Both the position numbers and the translations under genes were made by a program. Shown piece after piece: positions 4,248-28,276 of a stretch of DNA of 64,000 bases. The stretch is from Sporomusaceae bacterium. GTDB taxonomy: Bacteria > Bacillota > Negativicutes > UBA1444. Location: positions 1 to 64,000 of the forward strand of contig JAHDPL010000007.1 in the NCBI GenBank assembly GCA_018434355.1, in the 5' to 3' direction. Below the pieces are notes generated by a model. That model did not search any database and was not told the DNA's origin. It saw only the letters and a program-made list of their open reading frames with translations. Position 1 is the first letter of the stretch; each line of letters begins with the position of its first letter.

Positions 4248-5620
4248 CAGCTTGCTTTACGCTGCAGGAAGTGCTGACGGCGACCCAAGGCCGTTGTATA
4301 TCGCCAACCGGACAACAGACTTTTTCCGGCGTATCGACTGACAGCAGGACGCTGCAAGCGGGAACGCTGTATGTCGCTTTATCAGGAGAAAAATTTGACG
4401 GGCATGACTACGCATCAGAAGCGATTGCCAAAGGCGCCGCGGGTATTGTTGTGTCGAGAGTGCTGCCGCTGACTGTTGGAGTACCGGTAATATTGGTGGA
4501 AGACTGTCGTAAGGCTTTGCAGGATTTGGCTCGGTTCCACCGCTGTAGGTTCCAGGGTCCGCTGATTGCGGTGACAGGCTCCAATGGCAAGACATCGACC
4601 AAGGACATGATTGCCGCCGTATTGTCAACTTCGCTCAATGTACTGAAGACCGAGGCGAACTTCAACAATGAAATTGGACTGTCGCAAACTTTGCTGCGAC
4701 TCGATGCTTCGCATCAAGCCGTGGTCGTCGAGATGGGGATGCGGGGGCGCGGTGAGATCGCCGAACTGGCTTCGATTGCCCTGCCGACGGTCGGCGTGGT
4801 GACGAATGTCGGTGAAACGCATCTGGAAAGATTAGGCACGGTAGCGAACATTGCCGCAGCCAAGGCTGAACTGGTCGAAGCCTTGCCATCAAGCGGCATT
4901 GCCGTGCTCAATGCCGATGATGAGCTGGTTATGGCGATGCGGACGAAAACGGCCGCGCGGGTGGTAACTTATGCTGTGCGGAGCAGCGCCGAAGTCTCGG
5001 CATCGGATATCGAACAGACGGCGCAGCAAGTTTCGTTTCGGTGTGCTGCCGACAGTGGCCGTTTTGCTGTCACTGTTCCACTGCCGGGTCTGCATACGGT
5101 TTACAATGCGCTGGCGGCAATTGCGGTCGGACGCTTGCTCGGCCTGACGGAGGAGAAGATTGCTGCCGGGCTGGCTGGCTACCAACCGGGGAAAATGCGG
5201 TTGAATATCCGCCAATACGGACAGATCACCGTGATTGACGATACCTATAACGCGAGTCCGTTATCGATGGCGGCGGCGATTAACGTGCTGGCCGAAATAG
5301 CCAAAGGCCGGAAAATAGCTGCCATCGGCGATATGTTGGAACTGGGAACGGTTGCAGCGGTTGCCCATCAAAAAGTGGGCGTTCATCTGGCAACTGCCGG
5401 GGCTGCGATTGTCATTACTGTGGGTGAAATGGCAAGTCATGCGGCTACCGCAGCGACGCAGAACGGTGTGGCCAAGGTAGTTGCCTGCCAGGACCACGGG
5501 CAGGCGGTATCGGAACTGAAAAAACTGTTGCAACCAGGGGATACGCTGCTGATCAAAGGCTCCCGCGGCATGCAGATGGAAAAATTGCTGGCTGTATTTA
5601 CACCATCGTCGGAGGAATGA
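4244..5620 (+). CDS. murF: UDP-MurNAc-tripeptide: D-Ala-D-Ala ligase MurF
   Basis: MurF adds the D-Ala-D-Ala dipeptide to UDP-MurNAc-tripeptide. The protein (458 residues) has the three-domain Mur ligase layout with P-loop GSNGKTSTK (about 112-120), NFNNEIG after it (typical of MurF), and the family motif DDTYNASP for the middle-to-C-terminal junction. It starts inside the murE stop codon (ATGA), so the two are translationally coupled. Seven bases separate it from mraY. Confidence 0.97.
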   Translation: MTACFTLQEVLTATQGRCISPTGQQTFSGVSTDSRTLQAGTLYVALSGEKFDGHDYASEAIAKGAAGIVVSRVLPLTVGVPVILVEDCRKALQDLARFHRCRFQGPLIAVTGSNGKTSTKDMIAAVLSTSLNVLKTEANFNNEIGLSQTLLRLDASHQAVVVEMGMRGRGEIAELASIALPTVGVVTNVGETHLERLGTVANIAAAKAELVEALPSSGIAVLNADDELVMAMRTKTAARVVTYAVRSSAEVSASDIEQTAQQVSFRCAADSGRFAVTVPLPGLHTVYNALAAIAVGRLLGLTEEKIAAGLAGYQPGKMRLNIRQYGQITVIDDTYNASPLSMAAAINVLAEIAKGRKIAAIGDMLELGTVAAVAHQKVGVHLATAGAAIVITVGEMASHAATAATQNGVAKVVACQDHGQAVSELKKLLQPGDTLLIKGSRGMQMEKLLAVFTPSSEE

Positions 5621-22462: not shown

Positions 22463-23728
22463 ATGTTGACTTCTGGACCTCGCGGTACACACGACATCAC
22501 GCCGAATGAGGCGAAAAACTGGCTACGGATTGAGGCGGCAGCGCGGACGATCTGCAGTCTCTATCATTACGGTGAGATCCGCACGCCGATTTTTGAACAT
22601 ACGGAGTTGTTTTTGCGCGGCATCGGCGAAACCACTGACGTAGTGCAAAAAGAGATGTATACTTTTACCGACCGCGGCGGCCGCAGTGTGACGCTAAGGC
22701 CGGAAAACACGGCTGCTGTCGTGCGTTCCTATCTGGAGCAAAAATTGGGCGCTGACGGACAAACGGCCAAACTGTTTTATATTGGACCGATGTTCCGCTA
22801 TGATCGGCCGCAGGCCGGCCGCCTGCGCCAGTTTCATCAGTTCGGCATCGAGGCGATCGGCCCGACTGGCCCGTCAGTCGATGCAGAGATTATTGCAGTG
22901 GCTGTACGCTATTTCGAAAGCTTGGGACTGTCGAGCTTGAAGCTGATGATCAATTCGGTCGGCTGTCCGAAATGCAGACCGCAGTATCGAGTGGTGCTGC
23001 AGGACTTTTTGCGGGACAAACAACCGGACTTATGCCATGATTGTCAGTCAAGGTTTGAGCGCAATCCGATGCGGATTCTCGACTGCAAAGAAGAAAAATG
23101 CAACCGACTGTCAGCAGATGCGCCGCAAATGGTGGATTGCCTTTGCGAAGAATGCGCCGCTCATTTTTCCGGCTTGCAGCAATTTCTGCAGGCTGCCGGC
23201 ATTGAGTACACGCTGAATCCTCGCTTGGTGCGCGGACTTGACTATTACACCAAGACCGCCTTCGAAATCCAGTATCCGTTGCTTGGTGCGCAAAGCGCCG
23301 TCTGCGGCGGCGGTCGCTATGACGGACTGATTGAGGAATGCGGCGGCCCAGCTACCCCGGGCATCGGTTTTGCCATCGGCATGGAACGTGTGCTGTTGGC
23401 GATGGAAAAACAGCAACTGTTACCGCCGGCGCAGGATGAAGTGCCGGTATGGGTGATTCCGATGGCGCCGGAAGCGACGCTGCCGGCGTTCGGTTTGCTG
23501 AACCAACTGCGCGGACTGGGGATTTGCGCCGATATGGACCACAGCGGGCGCAGCATGAAGTCGCAGATGAAGCAGGCCAATCGGGTCAATGCGAAATATG
23601 TGGCGATATTTGGTGAAACAGAGCTCCAGACCAATCAGGTGACGCTAAAGAATATGACGATCGGCGAACAGACGATGCTGCCGTTAGCAACGGCCCTCAA
23701 TCAATTGAAACAGGAGTTGAACGGGTAA
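22463..23728 (+). CDS. hisS: Histidyl-tRNA synthetase
   Basis: This class II synthetase charges tRNA-His. The 421-residue protein has GPRGTHDI at the start, motif 2 around FYIGPMFRYDRPQAGRLRQF, the histidine-specific LVRGLDYYTKTAFE motif, GGGRYDGLIEECGG, motif 3 with GFAIGMERVLLAM, and a C-terminal anticodon-binding domain. A Cys-rich stretch near residues 171-230 (CPKC, CHDC, CKEEKC, CLCEEC) is seen in Firmicute HisRS insertions. It is preceded by CGGAGGG and followed without gap by aspS. No T-box leader fits in the 25-base gap. Confidence 0.96.
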   Translation: MLTSGPRGTHDITPNEAKNWLRIEAAARTICSLYHYGEIRTPIFEHTELFLRGIGETTDVVQKEMYTFTDRGGRSVTLRPENTAAVVRSYLEQKLGADGQTAKLFYIGPMFRYDRPQAGRLRQFHQFGIEAIGPTGPSVDAEIIAVAVRYFESLGLSSLKLMINSVGCPKCRPQYRVVLQDFLRDKQPDLCHDCQSRFERNPMRILDCKEEKCNRLSADAPQMVDCLCEECAAHFSGLQQFLQAAGIEYTLNPRLVRGLDYYTKTAFEIQYPLLGAQSAVCGGGRYDGLIEECGGPATPGIGFAIGMERVLLAMEKQQLLPPAQDEVPVWVIPMAPEATLPAFGLLNQLRGLGICADMDHSGRSMKSQMKQANRVNAKYVAIFGETELQTNQVTLKNMTIGEQTMLPLATALNQLKQELNG

Positions 23729-25525
23729 ATGGATACATTGGCAGGAATGAAACGGACTCACTCGTGCGGCGCGCTCACAGCTGCGGATGCCGGTACGGAA
23801 GTCATCTTGTGCGGCTGGGTTTCGCGCCAGCGGGACCACGGCGGATTGATTTTTATTGATCTGCGCGACCGGTCAGGCACCGTACAACTGGTATTCTCAC
23901 CGGAAATCAATCAGGCGGCGCTACTCAAAGCGGACGGCGTCCGAACCGAATATGTCCTCAGCGTGCGTGGCGCGGTTCGTTTGCGTTCGCCGGAAACCGT
24001 GAATCCGGCGATGGAAACCGGTGCGATCGAAGTGTGCGGCGAAGAGATCCGCATTCTCAATCCAGCTAAGACACCGCCGTTCTACATTCAGGACAATGTG
24101 GACGTCGATGAAACCGTTCGACTGAAATACCGCTATCTGGACCTGCGTCGGCCGGAAATGCAGCACAATCTGATATTACGCCACCGCGTCGCCAAGACGA
24201 TGCGCGACTTCTTTGACAGTCGCGACTTCATCGAAGTCGAAACGCCGATGCTGACCAAAAGCACGCCGGAAGGCGCGCGCGACTATCTGGTTCCCAGCCG
24301 GGTCAATCCTGGCAAGTTTTATGCCTTGCCGCAATCGCCGCAAATCTTCAAACAAATCCTGATGGTGGCCGGTTACGAGCGTTACTTCCAGATCGTTCGC
24401 TGTTTCCGCGACGAAGATCTGCGGGCCGACCGCCAGCCTGAGTTTACCCAGCTGGATGTCGAGATGTCGTTTGTCGAGCGGGACGATGTGCTGGCAATTA
24501 TGGAAAAGATGATCGCCGAAGTGTTCAAGGTGGCGATCGGCGCGGAACTGTCACTGCCGATGCGGCGTCTGTCTTATGATGAGGCGATGGAAAAGTTCGG
24601 TTCGGATAAGCCGGATCTGCGCTTCGATATGGAGATTTTTGATTTGTCTGAGGCGATGCGGGGTTCAGATTTCAAGGTGTTCGAATCGGTGCTGGCTGCC
24701 GGCGGCAAAATCAAGGGCATCAATGTCAAAGGCAATGCGGCGATTCCCCGCCGCGAGCTGGACGGTCTGGTCAATTATGTCGGCCAGTATGGCGCCAAAG
24801 GCCTGGCTTGGATCGGTTACACGGCGGAAGGGCTTAAATCGCAGATTTCAAAGTTTTTCTCGGATGAGCAATTGGATAAAATCCGCCTGACGGCGCAAGC
24901 CGAAGAAGGCGATCTGGTGCTTATCATTGCCGACAAACCGGCGGTCGCGGTCAACGCGATGGGGCAGTTGCGGCTGGAGATGGCACGGCGGATGAACCTG
25001 ATCGACCCTGACAAACTGGCGTTCGCCTGGGTGCTTGACTTCCCGATGTTCGAATACGACGAGGAAGAAAAACGCTATGTGGCGATGCACCATCCGTTCA
25101 CTTCGCCGCGTGACGAAGACATCCAGTATCTTGAGACAGAACCTGGCCGGATCAAAGCCAAGGCCTATGACATGGTGCTGAATGGCACTGAGATCGGCGG
25201 CGGCAGTATCCGGATATTCCAGCGCGATGTACAGGAAAAGGTATTTAAGGCAATCGGACTGACGGAAGAAGAAGCAAACGAAAAGTTCGGCTATTTGCTG
25301 GAGGCCTTTGAATTTGGCACGCCGCCGCACGGCGGGATCGCTTTCGGTCTCGACCGTCTGATTATGCTGATGGCAAAGCGTTCTTCGATCCGCGATGTGA
25401 TTGCTTTCCCCAAGACGCAAAGCGCTACCGACCTGATGTCTCAGGCGCCGTCGGAGGTTTCGCTGCGCCAACTGAAGGAACTCTCGATCCGGACTGAAGT
25501 GGCTGCCAAAAAGACTCAGAAGTAA
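23729..25525 (+). CDS. aspS: Aspartyl-tRNA synthetase (bacterial type)
   Basis: AspRS of 598 residues has an N-terminal OB anticodon domain (GWVSRQRDHGGLIFIDLRDR), the class II core with YRYLDLRRPEM and FRDEDLRADRQPEFTQLD, the bacterial GAD insertion (about 290-410), and motif 3 FGLDRLIMLM. Whether it is discriminating or also charges tRNA-Asn cannot be decided here because gatCAB and asnS are not in the window. It begins directly after the hisS stop. hisS-aspS is the standard Firmicute pair, and the 6S RNA candidate follows. Confidence 0.96.
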   Translation: MDTLAGMKRTHSCGALTAADAGTEVILCGWVSRQRDHGGLIFIDLRDRSGTVQLVFSPEINQAALLKADGVRTEYVLSVRGAVRLRSPETVNPAMETGAIEVCGEEIRILNPAKTPPFYIQDNVDVDETVRLKYRYLDLRRPEMQHNLILRHRVAKTMRDFFDSRDFIEVETPMLTKSTPEGARDYLVPSRVNPGKFYALPQSPQIFKQILMVAGYERYFQIVRCFRDEDLRADRQPEFTQLDVEMSFVERDDVLAIMEKMIAEVFKVAIGAELSLPMRRLSYDEAMEKFGSDKPDLRFDMEIFDLSEAMRGSDFKVFESVLAAGGKIKGINVKGNAAIPRRELDGLVNYVGQYGAKGLAWIGYTAEGLKSQISKFFSDEQLDKIRLTAQAEEGDLVLIIADKPAVAVNAMGQLRLEMARRMNLIDPDKLAFAWVLDFPMFEYDEEEKRYVAMHHPFTSPRDEDIQYLETEPGRIKAKAYDMVLNGTEIGGGSIRIFQRDVQEKVFKAIGLTEEEANEKFGYLLEAFEFGTPPHGGIAFGLDRLIMLMAKRSSIRDVIAFPKTQSATDLMSQAPSEVSLRQLKELSIRTEVAAKKTQK

Positions 25526-25539
25526 TGTTGCTTCAACTG

Positions 25540-25568
25540 TTGCCAGTAAGGCGGCAGTCTGGTACACT
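25540..25568 (+). promoter_or_regulatory. Promoter of the 6S RNA candidate
   Basis: TTGCCA (25540-25545), a 17-bp spacer ending in TGG and TACACT (25563-25568) form an extended -10 promoter. The expected start near 25574-25576 is the 5' end of the predicted closing stem. Confidence 0.65.
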
Positions 25569-25573
25569 CATAG

Positions 25574-25791
25574 TAAGAATAGTTGCATAAATCATCCTTG
25601 TCCCTGCTGTGTGCGTATAAACCCATTGTTTTGATCCAACACTTTCACATTGGGAGCTCAGACTCTGGTCGCTGCGTGAAAGCCCTGCTTGTTTCAGGGA
25701 CTCATTATACGGACAGGCGCGCACCCACCTGCTTAGGCAGGATTCAAAACACGGGTCAAACGGCATCGCGGGGATTTTTCTACTCTTTTTT
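25574..25791 (+). ncRNA. ssrS: 6S RNA candidate
   Basis: About 218 nt with no plausible coding frame fold into the 6S layout. AAGAATAG near the 5' end pairs with CTACTCTT (25780-25787; one mismatch), followed by a U run. Inside, GUGUG (25609-25613) pairs with CGCAC (25720-25724) and CGUAUAA (25614-25620) with UUAUACG (25705-25711). A central bubble of about 20 nt on each strand follows. CUUUCAC (25642-25648) pairs with GUGAAAG (25676-25682) to make the apical stem. The 3' side of the bubble holds a small hairpin CCCUG/CAGGG (25683-25699), as described for Firmicute 6S RNAs. In Bacillus subtilis the 6S gene bsrA also lies downstream of aspS. 6S RNA traps sigma-A RNA polymerase by mimicking an open promoter. 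Confidence 0.7.
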
Positions 25792-25854
25792 CGTGTGCTT
25801 GCCTGGCAGGAATGCTGACAAAGTAACCGAAATATAAAAGAGTAGTATTTTTTT
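25780..25854 (+). terminator. Long-range hairpin and terminator before ltaE
   Basis: CTACTCTTTT (25780-25789) is perfectly complementary to AAAAGAGTAG (25836-25845), which is followed by TATTTTTTT. The loop is about 46 nt. The 5' arm is the same segment that closes the 6S stem, so the two pairings exclude each other. Confidence 0.55.
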
Positions 25855-25857
25855 GTC

Positions 25858-25879
25858 CCGAATCAGGCAGTTGATTCGG
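25858..25879 (+). promoter_or_regulatory. Hairpin next to the ltaE ribosome binding site
   Basis: CCGAATCA (25858-25865) pairs perfectly with TGATTCGG (25872-25879) over a 6-nt loop. It ends where the GGAGAGG of ltaE begins, so it could affect ribosome access or protect the mRNA 5' end. Confidence 0.5.
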
Positions 25880-25897
25880 CGGAGAGGATTGTGAACG

Positions 25898-26932
25898 ATG
25901 GAGTATATTGATCTGCGCAGCGATACCGTGACAAAGCCGACGAACGAGATGCGTGAGGCGATGCTGAGAGCGGAAGTGGGCGATGACGTATACGGCGAAG
26001 ACCCGACCGTGATCGAACTGGAGAAACTGGGCGCCCGAATGACCGGCAAGGCCGCGGGCCTGTTCGTCGCCAGCGGCACGATGGGCAATCAGGTCGCTGT
26101 CTTGTCGCATACCCAGCGGGGCGATGAAGTCATTTGCGAAGCCGAATCGCACATTTATTATTATGAAGTGGCAGGCATGTCGGTTTTGTCTGGAGTGCAA
26201 GCCAGGACGCTGCCCTCGGTGAAGGGAGTTCTCAGTGCGGAAACCATCGAAGCGGCAATACGCCCGCTGGATGTCCACCAACCGCGCAGTGCGCTGATTT
26301 GTCTGGAAGATACCCACAACCGGGCTGGCGGCACCTGCTATCCGTTGGAAACCTTGGCAGCGATCCGCAAACTGGCTGACCGGTGCAAAATCCCGGTGCA
26401 TATTGACGGCGCCCGATTGTTCAACGCAGCGGTCGCGCAAGGGGTAAAAGTTGATAAGATTGCTCAGTATGCCGATTCGGTCCAGTTTTGTCTGTCGAAA
26501 GGTTTGTGCGCGCCTGTCGGCAGCTTGCTGGTCGGCAGCGAAGAATTCATCGCCAAAGCCCGCCGTTATCGCAAGATGCTCGGTGGCGGCATGAGACAGG
26601 CGGGCGTCATTGCGGCAACCGGGATTGTCGGTTTGCAAAGCATGGTGGAGCGTCTGGCGGAAGACCATGCCAATGCGAAGTTGTTGGCGAATGAACTGGC
26701 TACAAGCGGCTTTGCCATCGATTTATCGACAGTCCAGACTAATATCGTGATCTTTGATGTATCGCGAACAGGCCTAAAGGCGGCGGATTTCGTCGCACGA
26801 CTGAAGAAAGCCGGCGTGCTGGCCGGCGCAGTTGGCGAATACCGGGTCCGCATGGTGACGCATCATGGTATAACCGCGGCTGAAATCGCAAAAGTGGTGG
26901 ATGTATTGCAGCATCTGCCGAAGAAAGGCTGA
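25898..26932 (+). CDS. ltaE: Low-specificity L-threonine aldolase
   Basis: This PLP enzyme cleaves L-threonine and L-allo-threonine to glycine and acetaldehyde. The 344-residue fold-type I protein begins with the signature [12 protein letters not shown]. It has [18 protein letters not shown] (cofactor phosphate site), [10 protein letters not shown] (Asp contacting PLP) and the Schiff-base lysine K201 in [13 protein letters not shown]. It lies three bases ahead of rarA, with which it must be co-transcribed. The leader upstream contains a terminator-like structure and a hairpin by the ribosome site. Confidence 0.93.
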
Positions 26933-26935
26933 ACC

Positions 26936-28276
26936 GTGGACTTGTTTGCCGACCAGATGGAGAGCCGGCGGCTCAATCGTGAACCGCTCGCGCTACGGAT
27001 GCGTCCGCGGACGCTGGATGATTTTGTCGGACAGTCGGATTTGGTAGGACCGGGGCGGTTTTTGCGCCGGGTGATTGAAGCCGATTCTTTGCCGTCTCTG
27101 TTGTTTTTTGGCCCGCCGGGCACCGGCAAAACGACGCTGGCCAATATCGTGGCCCATTCGACCGGCGCGCAGTTTGAAGAGATGAACGCGGTGTCCGCCG
27201 GTGTGGCCGACATCCGCAAAGCGGTCGACAAGGCGCGCGATCGCTTGCTACGGGCTAATCGCCGCACGATCCTGTTCATCGACGAGATCCATCGTTTCAA
27301 CAAGTCGCAGCAGGACGCATTGCTGCCGCATGTGGAGAACGGAACGATCACGTTGATTGGCGCGACGACGGAAAACCCCTACTTTGAAGTGAACTCGCCG
27401 CTGTTATCGCGCATGCGGGTGTTGCGGCTGCAGGCTTTGTCACGCCAGGAAATCGTCGGCATTTTGCAGCGGGCGTTAAATGATGAAGCGCGAGGACTGG
27501 CAACGTTTCAGGCCAGGGCGGCGGATGAGGTGCTGGGACTGCTCTCCGACCGGGCCGGCGGCGATGCCCGGGTGGCGCTGAATTTATTGGAACAGATGGT
27601 GCTGATGCTGGCTGCGGAACAGGCGGAACCGGCACAGCCGATCGAGTTGACCCGTGAAATTGTCGAAACCGTCGCCATAGAAAAATTTCAGGCCTACGAT
27701 AAAAAAGGCGACAATCACTATGATGTCACGTCCGCATTTATTAAAAGCATGCGCGGTTCCGACCCCGACGCAGCCCTGCACTATCTGGCCCGGATGATCG
27801 AAGGCGGCGAAGACCCACGGTTCATTGCGCGTAGAATCATCATCTGCGCGGCCGAAGATGTCGGGAACGCCGACCCGACTGCGCTGATGCTGGCTGTAGC
27901 CGCCATGCAGGCGGCCGAGATGATCGGCTGGCCAGAGGCGAGAATCCCGATTGCACAGGCGGTGACCTACATCGCGGCCGCGCCAAAGAGCAATGCGGCT
28001 TATCTGGCGATCGACAGGGCCATGGCCGATGTGCGGGATCGTGAATGCGGCCCGGTGCCGCTGCATTTGCGAGACAGCCATTACCGGGGCGCTCAGCTGT
28101 TGGGGCATGGCAAAGGTTATAAGTATCCGCATGATTATCCGGAAGGTTTTGTCAACCAACAATATTTGCCGGAGCAACTGGCAGACAGTCGATACTACCA
28201 ACCGACGGAGCATGGCGCGGAACAGCGTTTGGCAGTCTTGATGAAACAGCGGCGACAAGGCCCGCAGAAGAAGTAA
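26936..28276 (+). CDS. rarA: Replication-associated recombination AAA ATPase RarA
   Basis: RarA (MgsA) is a clamp-loader-like AAA+ ATPase acting at stalled replication forks. The 446-residue protein has RMRPRTLDDFVGQ, Walker A GPPGTGKTT (59-67), Walker B FIDEIHRFNKSQQDALLP, sensor 1 IGATTENPYF, sensor 2, and the C-terminal tetramerisation region (GHGKGYKYPHDYPEGF). The start is GTG 26936. hisS-aspS-(6S)-rarA followed by an Rrf2-family regulator is a conserved Firmicute neighbourhood. Here a large signalling gene is inserted between rarA and iscR. Confidence 0.95.
   Translation: MDLFADQMESRRLNREPLALRMRPRTLDDFVGQSDLVGPGRFLRRVIEADSLPSLLFFGPPGTGKTTLANIVAHSTGAQFEEMNAVSAGVADIRKAVDKARDRLLRANRRTILFIDEIHRFNKSQQDALLPHVENGTITLIGATTENPYFEVNSPLLSRMRVLRLQALSRQEIVGILQRALNDEARGLATFQARAADEVLGLLSDRAGGDARVALNLLEQMVLMLAAEQAEPAQPIELTREIVETVAIEKFQAYDKKGDNHYDVTSAFIKSMRGSDPDAALHYLARMIEGGEDPRFIARRIIICAAEDVGNADPTALMLAVAAMQAAEMIGWPEARIPIAQAVTYIAAAPKSNAAYLAIDRAMADVRDRECGPVPLHLRDSHYRGAQLLGHGKGYKYPHDYPEGFVNQQYLPEQLADSRYYQPTEHGAEQRLAVLMKQRRQGPQKK

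Follow-up and report, generated by a model that had tools for sequence, protein, structure and literature searches.

The 64,000-nt stretch of Sporomusaceae bacterium DNA analysed here (the window; GenBank assembly GCA_018434355.1, contig JAHDPL010000007.1) has a long intergenic gap downstream of aspS, and the question that it raises is whether this gap encodes a small RNA and, if so, of which family. A prediction made from the letters alone (the original prediction) had placed a 6S RNA there. 6S RNA is well known as a promoter-mimicking small RNA that restrains RNA polymerase, and its gene in a Negativicutes bacterium is an expected, ordinary finding. The gap measures 372 bases, as had been stated, from the end of the aspS frame at 25525 to the start of the next gene at 25898. 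Upstream of it lie hisS (22463–23728) and aspS (23729–25525), and downstream a threonine-aldolase-type gene (25898–26932), all three assigned by NCBIfam and Pfam, followed by a gene for a RarA/MgsA-type AAA ATPase (rarA, 26936–28276), assigned by Pfam MgsA_C at 248.5 bits, with a product below the NCBIfam cut-off for RarA. We call the aldolase gene ltaE after the original prediction; it scores 324.7 bits with the low-specificity L-threonine aldolase model (cut-off 312) and fits the GntG-family PLP-dependent aldolase better (462.5 bits, cut-off 230). A perfect 8-bp inverted repeat, CCGAATCA/TGATTCGG, is found at 25858–25879, directly before the ltaE ribosome-binding region.

Family assignment and copy number

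Infernal scanning of the whole 64-kb window against Rfam 15 gave a single match at the gathering threshold: RF00013, the 6S RNA family, at 25598–25778 on the forward strand, which also carries all features described below. The match is full length (model positions 1–187 of 187), and its score of 101.2 bits (E = 3.3e-19) is far over the gathering score of 46.4 bits. No other family matched better; the three other matches in 25300–26000 at E <= 10 all scored far under their families' cut-offs. The same RF00013 search was positive in two control genomes, B. subtilis and E. coli, the 6S RNA of the latter (ssrS) belonging to the same family. Negativicutes sequences are likely present in Rfam's own alignments.

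The genome that contains the window (3.9 Mb in 55 contigs, its completeness given as 100%) has one RF00013 copy, and no second copy was found with all 45 candidates scored; this is a difference from B. subtilis 6S-1. With a model of a second 6S type described below (R1), applied to 68 of the 441 first-look candidates, the only locus recovered from this genome was that at 25598–25778; a 13-base template pattern had no match in it. The family match, fold, covariation, synteny, promoter-like site and template conservation were all computed for this locus. The predicted 6S identity is borne out by the covariance-model score, the covariation, the template conservation and the synteny, and the stretch very probably encodes a 6S RNA. 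We regard it as almost certain that the best overall explanation is a single 6S RNA gene of the ssrS/bsrA type, with a sigma-A-type promoter and a rod-shaped RNA that would hold RNA polymerase and be released by a product RNA (pRNA).

Fold and covariation

The closing stem, central bubble and apical stem that had been described are all present. Closing stem P1 pairs 25599–25616 with 25760–25776 (5′ strand by fold and conservation, 3′ strand by fold and covariation), helix P2 pairs 25627–25637 with 25740–25751 (3′ strand by fold and covariation), and the apical arm spans 25652–25726, its main helix having two-sided changes in 13 of 17 pairs. On the 3′ side of the central bubble, fold and conservation likewise place the small hairpin of the original prediction, CCUGC/GCAGG, at 25728–25741. 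For the comparison across the class, 50 distinct 6S sequences, including that of the window and all found with RF00013, were aligned with MAFFT (alignment A1). Four of the five pairs of the 3′-bubble hairpin are identical in 50/50 sequences, and the fifth is U-A (48) or U-G (2).

RNAalifold predicted 46 pairs on A1, 22 of them with two-sided changes. The Rfam structure paired 87.3% of the alignment cells, against 80.3% in shuffled alignments and 43.7–46.7% when slid, a share that leans towards the RF00013 fold because the sequences were found with RF00013. Covariation counts are affected less by this selection: two-sided changes occurred in 26 of 51 pairs (19.8 in shuffled alignments), and the covariation score was 0.252 against 0.131, with none of 500 shuffles as high. 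These data support a rod-shaped fold, made up of the closing stem, the central bubble and the apical arm, that is maintained by covariation. The folding energy of the single sequence is mildly unusual (z = −1.99; 9/200 shuffles at least as stable) and, taken alone, is weak evidence for 6S identity. In the window sequence the Rfam register of the apical GGG/CCC pairs reaches a probability of about 0.36–0.37, because the pairs of the minimum-energy fold are shifted against it.

A second, competing pairing had been proposed to refold the RNA upon product-RNA synthesis. Its letters are as claimed, GUCCCUG (25600–25606) and CAGGGAC (25695–25701) being exact complements; the refolding helix itself did not stand. 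All seven pairs have a probability of 0.0, and enforcing them gives −40.2 kcal/mol against −61.2 kcal/mol, a cost of 21 kcal/mol. Across the class the helix pairs 58.6% of the cells, compared with 58.0% in shuffled alignments, showing no conservation beyond the shuffles, and it has two two-sided pairs against 2.9 in shuffles, that is, no covariation. Its share of paired cells exceeds that of its slid versions (30.0–51.4%), as expected from the main fold, in which CAGGG at 25695–25699 pairs with CCCUG at 25683–25687, letters that also occur in the closing stem.

Candidate promoter and transcript ends

The promoter predicted in the gap corresponds to a promoter-like site at 25540–25568, where a promoter scan found a candidate −35 element, TTGCCA (25540–25545), and, after a 17-nt spacer, a −10 element, TACACT (25563–25568), with a TG upstream. 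Two such sites occur in 601 bases on both strands, compared with 0.6 ± 0.8 in shuffles. The nearest named relative by aspS, Negativicutes bacterium UBA1444 (L076; 88% identity over query residues 215–598), has identical hexamers and spacing ahead of its 6S RNA, and the intervening leader differs. L076 is a metagenome-assembled genome and the only named same-genus relative here. The locus contributes a precise annotation (fold, template and promoter) of 6S RNA in this lineage; the understanding of 6S RNA is left unchanged by it. Transcription probably starts near 25575, which would give the RNA a 5′ leader of about 23 nt, to be either retained or processed.

Directly after P1, two U runs, where one had been noted, can be read at 25775–25779 (U5) and, after six bases, at 25786–25791 (U6), and they mark a possible 3′ end (25775–25791). 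A transcript from the sigma-A-type promoter would measure about 180–205 nt. Folding of 25770–25860 (−27.8 kcal/mol, z = −3.69, 0/200 shuffles as good) also revealed a long bulged hairpin at 25780–25854, between the 6S RNA and ltaE, with a 10-bp, A/U-rich base stem (CTACTCTTTT/AAAAGAGTAG) and then a T7 run, which we consider a candidate terminator. Two standard terminator scans scored no terminator at this long and bulged hairpin, and by eye it was absent from the 110 nt after the 6S RNA in L076. A simple scan of up to 100 nt after the 6S RNA found a hairpin with a T run in 23 of 53 sequences and in 47 of 1,060 letter-shuffled controls; the hairpin at 25780–25854 may therefore end a longer transcript. 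The segment 25779–25900 was rejected as a repeat, having a single match in the genome.

Gene order and distribution

Of 60 genomes, including that of the window, 59 gave 6S matches with E <= 0.001, in 58 of them with scores over the cut-off; one small genome of the class (G057; 1.3 Mb, 98% complete) had no match at this threshold. For synteny, 80 named loci were kept of 484 with an AspS relative, the loci being chosen by aspS. At the Rfam gathering threshold, 30 of the 80 have a 6S RNA after aspS, with 62 to 515 nt between the end of the AspS match and the start of the 6S RNA. Thirty of the 80 loci are Negativicutes-type by our own grouping (L031–L057, L065, L068 and L076, with L046 and L056 labelled only Bacillota), and 27 of them have the 6S RNA after aspS; none was found in L044, L053 or L057, the last of which has a contig that ends at aspS. 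In L053 (Megasphaera micronuciformis), a ZTP riboswitch lies about 220 nt after aspS (5009–5086), and no 6S RNA was found in the locus. The other three 6S-bearing loci are from Tumebacillus (L073), Clostridium sp. (L080) and Halanaerobiaceae (L096).

By tblastn with the proteins of the window, hisS is upstream in 25 of the 27 6S-bearing Negativicutes-type loci (not in L065 and L076), and 24 carry rarA downstream in the same orientation (not L031, L046 and L076, the last a short contig). These counts bear on the reading of the structure as a cis-acting leader of ltaE rather than a free-standing RNA, a reading to which we give next to no credence. The structure does lie upstream of ltaE on the same strand, with the stable hairpin and T7 run between them; however, an aldolase gene is downstream of the 6S RNA in only one of the 27 loci (L031), whereas rarA follows in the 24 just named and aspS, by which the loci were chosen, precedes in 27/27. 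The structure is, moreover, that of 6S RNA and of no known cis element. We therefore keep to a free-standing 6S RNA.

The bsrA-like position after aspS also holds: aspS and yrvM flank bsrA (6S-1) of B. subtilis, a member of RF00013, according to PMC11077062, so that the next gene there is yrvM and in the window ltaE. Linkage to rarA is shared with lactic acid bacteria, whose 6S RNA is described in PMC8414754 with rarA upstream and uspA downstream; in the window rarA is the second gene downstream. The order hisS-aspS-6S with rarA downstream agrees with the Bacillota neighbourhood and is supportive, not strictly defining. We infer that it suggests an old gene order in Bacillota, aspS-6S-...-rarA, joining the Bacillus (aspS) and lactic acid bacteria (rarA) contexts. 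Among the literature matches listed from the one library searched, none treated 6S RNA in Negativicutes or 6S/ssrS in four genera of the class, and within that library none was found that brought 6S, aspS and rarA together.

Predicted product-RNA template and release

A predicted pRNA template lies in the 5′ bubble at 25627–25640, overlapping the 5′ strand of P2. Copying from C25640 would yield the pRNA 5′-GUUGGAUCAAAACA, or, as antisense sequence beginning opposite C25640, GUUGGAUC... The start register was set by visual comparison with the B. subtilis 6S-1 pRNA, GUUCGGUCAAAACU, as given in PMC8876501, and the two pRNAs are equal at 11 of 14 positions. Three features reported as pRNA hallmarks in PMC8414754, a start-adjoining A, a GG and an AA, are present at the template, and in A1 the adjoining A, GG at pRNA positions 4/5 and AA at 9/10 each occur in 50/50 sequences. 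In lactic acid bacteria the pRNA likewise has the A beside its start, a GG, and AA at positions 9/10, according to the same paper. The GG is at 4/5 in the window, as it is in E. coli, whereas it is at 5/6 in lactic acid bacteria (both from that paper) and at 5/6 in B. subtilis 6S-1.

The template also bears on whether the locus is a decaying 6S copy that is no longer functional. The window sequence has one extra A, at 25742, that occurs in none of the other 49 A1 sequences, as decay might leave; against this, every bubble and template base without variation in A1 is preserved, the promoter hexamers are common to L076, and the genome, listed as 100% complete, yielded no copy besides this 101.2-bit match. 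We consider decay very improbable and a working 6S RNA gene the better reading.

Transcription of the locus, polymerase binding, pRNA synthesis and release would follow from membership in the 6S family. By analogy with studied 6S RNAs, a transcript of the predicted length would fold into the rod with its central bubble, mimic an open promoter, occupy the housekeeping RNA polymerase holoenzyme and damp transcription. When NTPs return, the polymerase would copy the 5′ bubble from C25640 into the short pRNA, which would open P2 while the 3′-bubble hairpin stays, and the 6S RNA would leave the enzyme.

The GG at 25740–25741 has two alternative partners, CC at 25636–25637 in P2 or the 3′-bubble hairpin, and both options are kept in 50/50 sequences. 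Opening of P2 by the pRNA is a known switch according to PMC8876501. Opening of P2 together with the conserved 3′-bubble hairpin is the likelier switch, over the GUCCCUG/CAGGGAC pair of the original prediction. As described in the same paper, the hairpin is already present in free B. subtilis 6S-1, which agrees with the window, whereas in E. coli it has 9 bp and forms on release; the hairpin of the window, with 5–6 bp, is predicted for the free RNA as well. The B. subtilis central bubble collapse helix, formed by the 3′ strand of P2 and the distal 5′ bubble, is unsupported here, a further difference from 6S-1. In a crude duplex-energy test on hand-cut segments, its duplex has −0.3 kcal/mol in the window, and the mean over the 50 sequences is −1.11 kcal/mol compared with −1.07 kcal/mol (s.d. 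1.70) for shuffled ones. A tentative and rather unlikely extension is that aspS-linked 6S RNAs of Negativicutes are released without a collapse helix by a mixed mechanism, in which the pRNA is Bacillus-like and the conserved 3′-bubble hairpin, sharing its GG with P2, acts as in gammaproteobacteria.

A second 6S type in Negativicutes

Two or more RF00013 matches, and up to four, occur in 26 of the 60 genomes. Twenty further copies (L112–L131, for example L116 1501–1677) have aspS in none of their stretches of up to 3.2 kb, and all 20 share a different template, with the predicted pRNA GUAGGUUGAACAUA and near variants. They represent a second type of Negativicutes 6S RNA, which is located apart from aspS and has a conserved template of its own. 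In one genome (G036), two partial 6S matches, at C77:5975–6078 and C165:14040–14143, cover model positions 39–148 with 34.8 bits each, below the cut-off; they lie on contigs other than those of its two full copies, and each scores 105.4 bits with the model of the second type.
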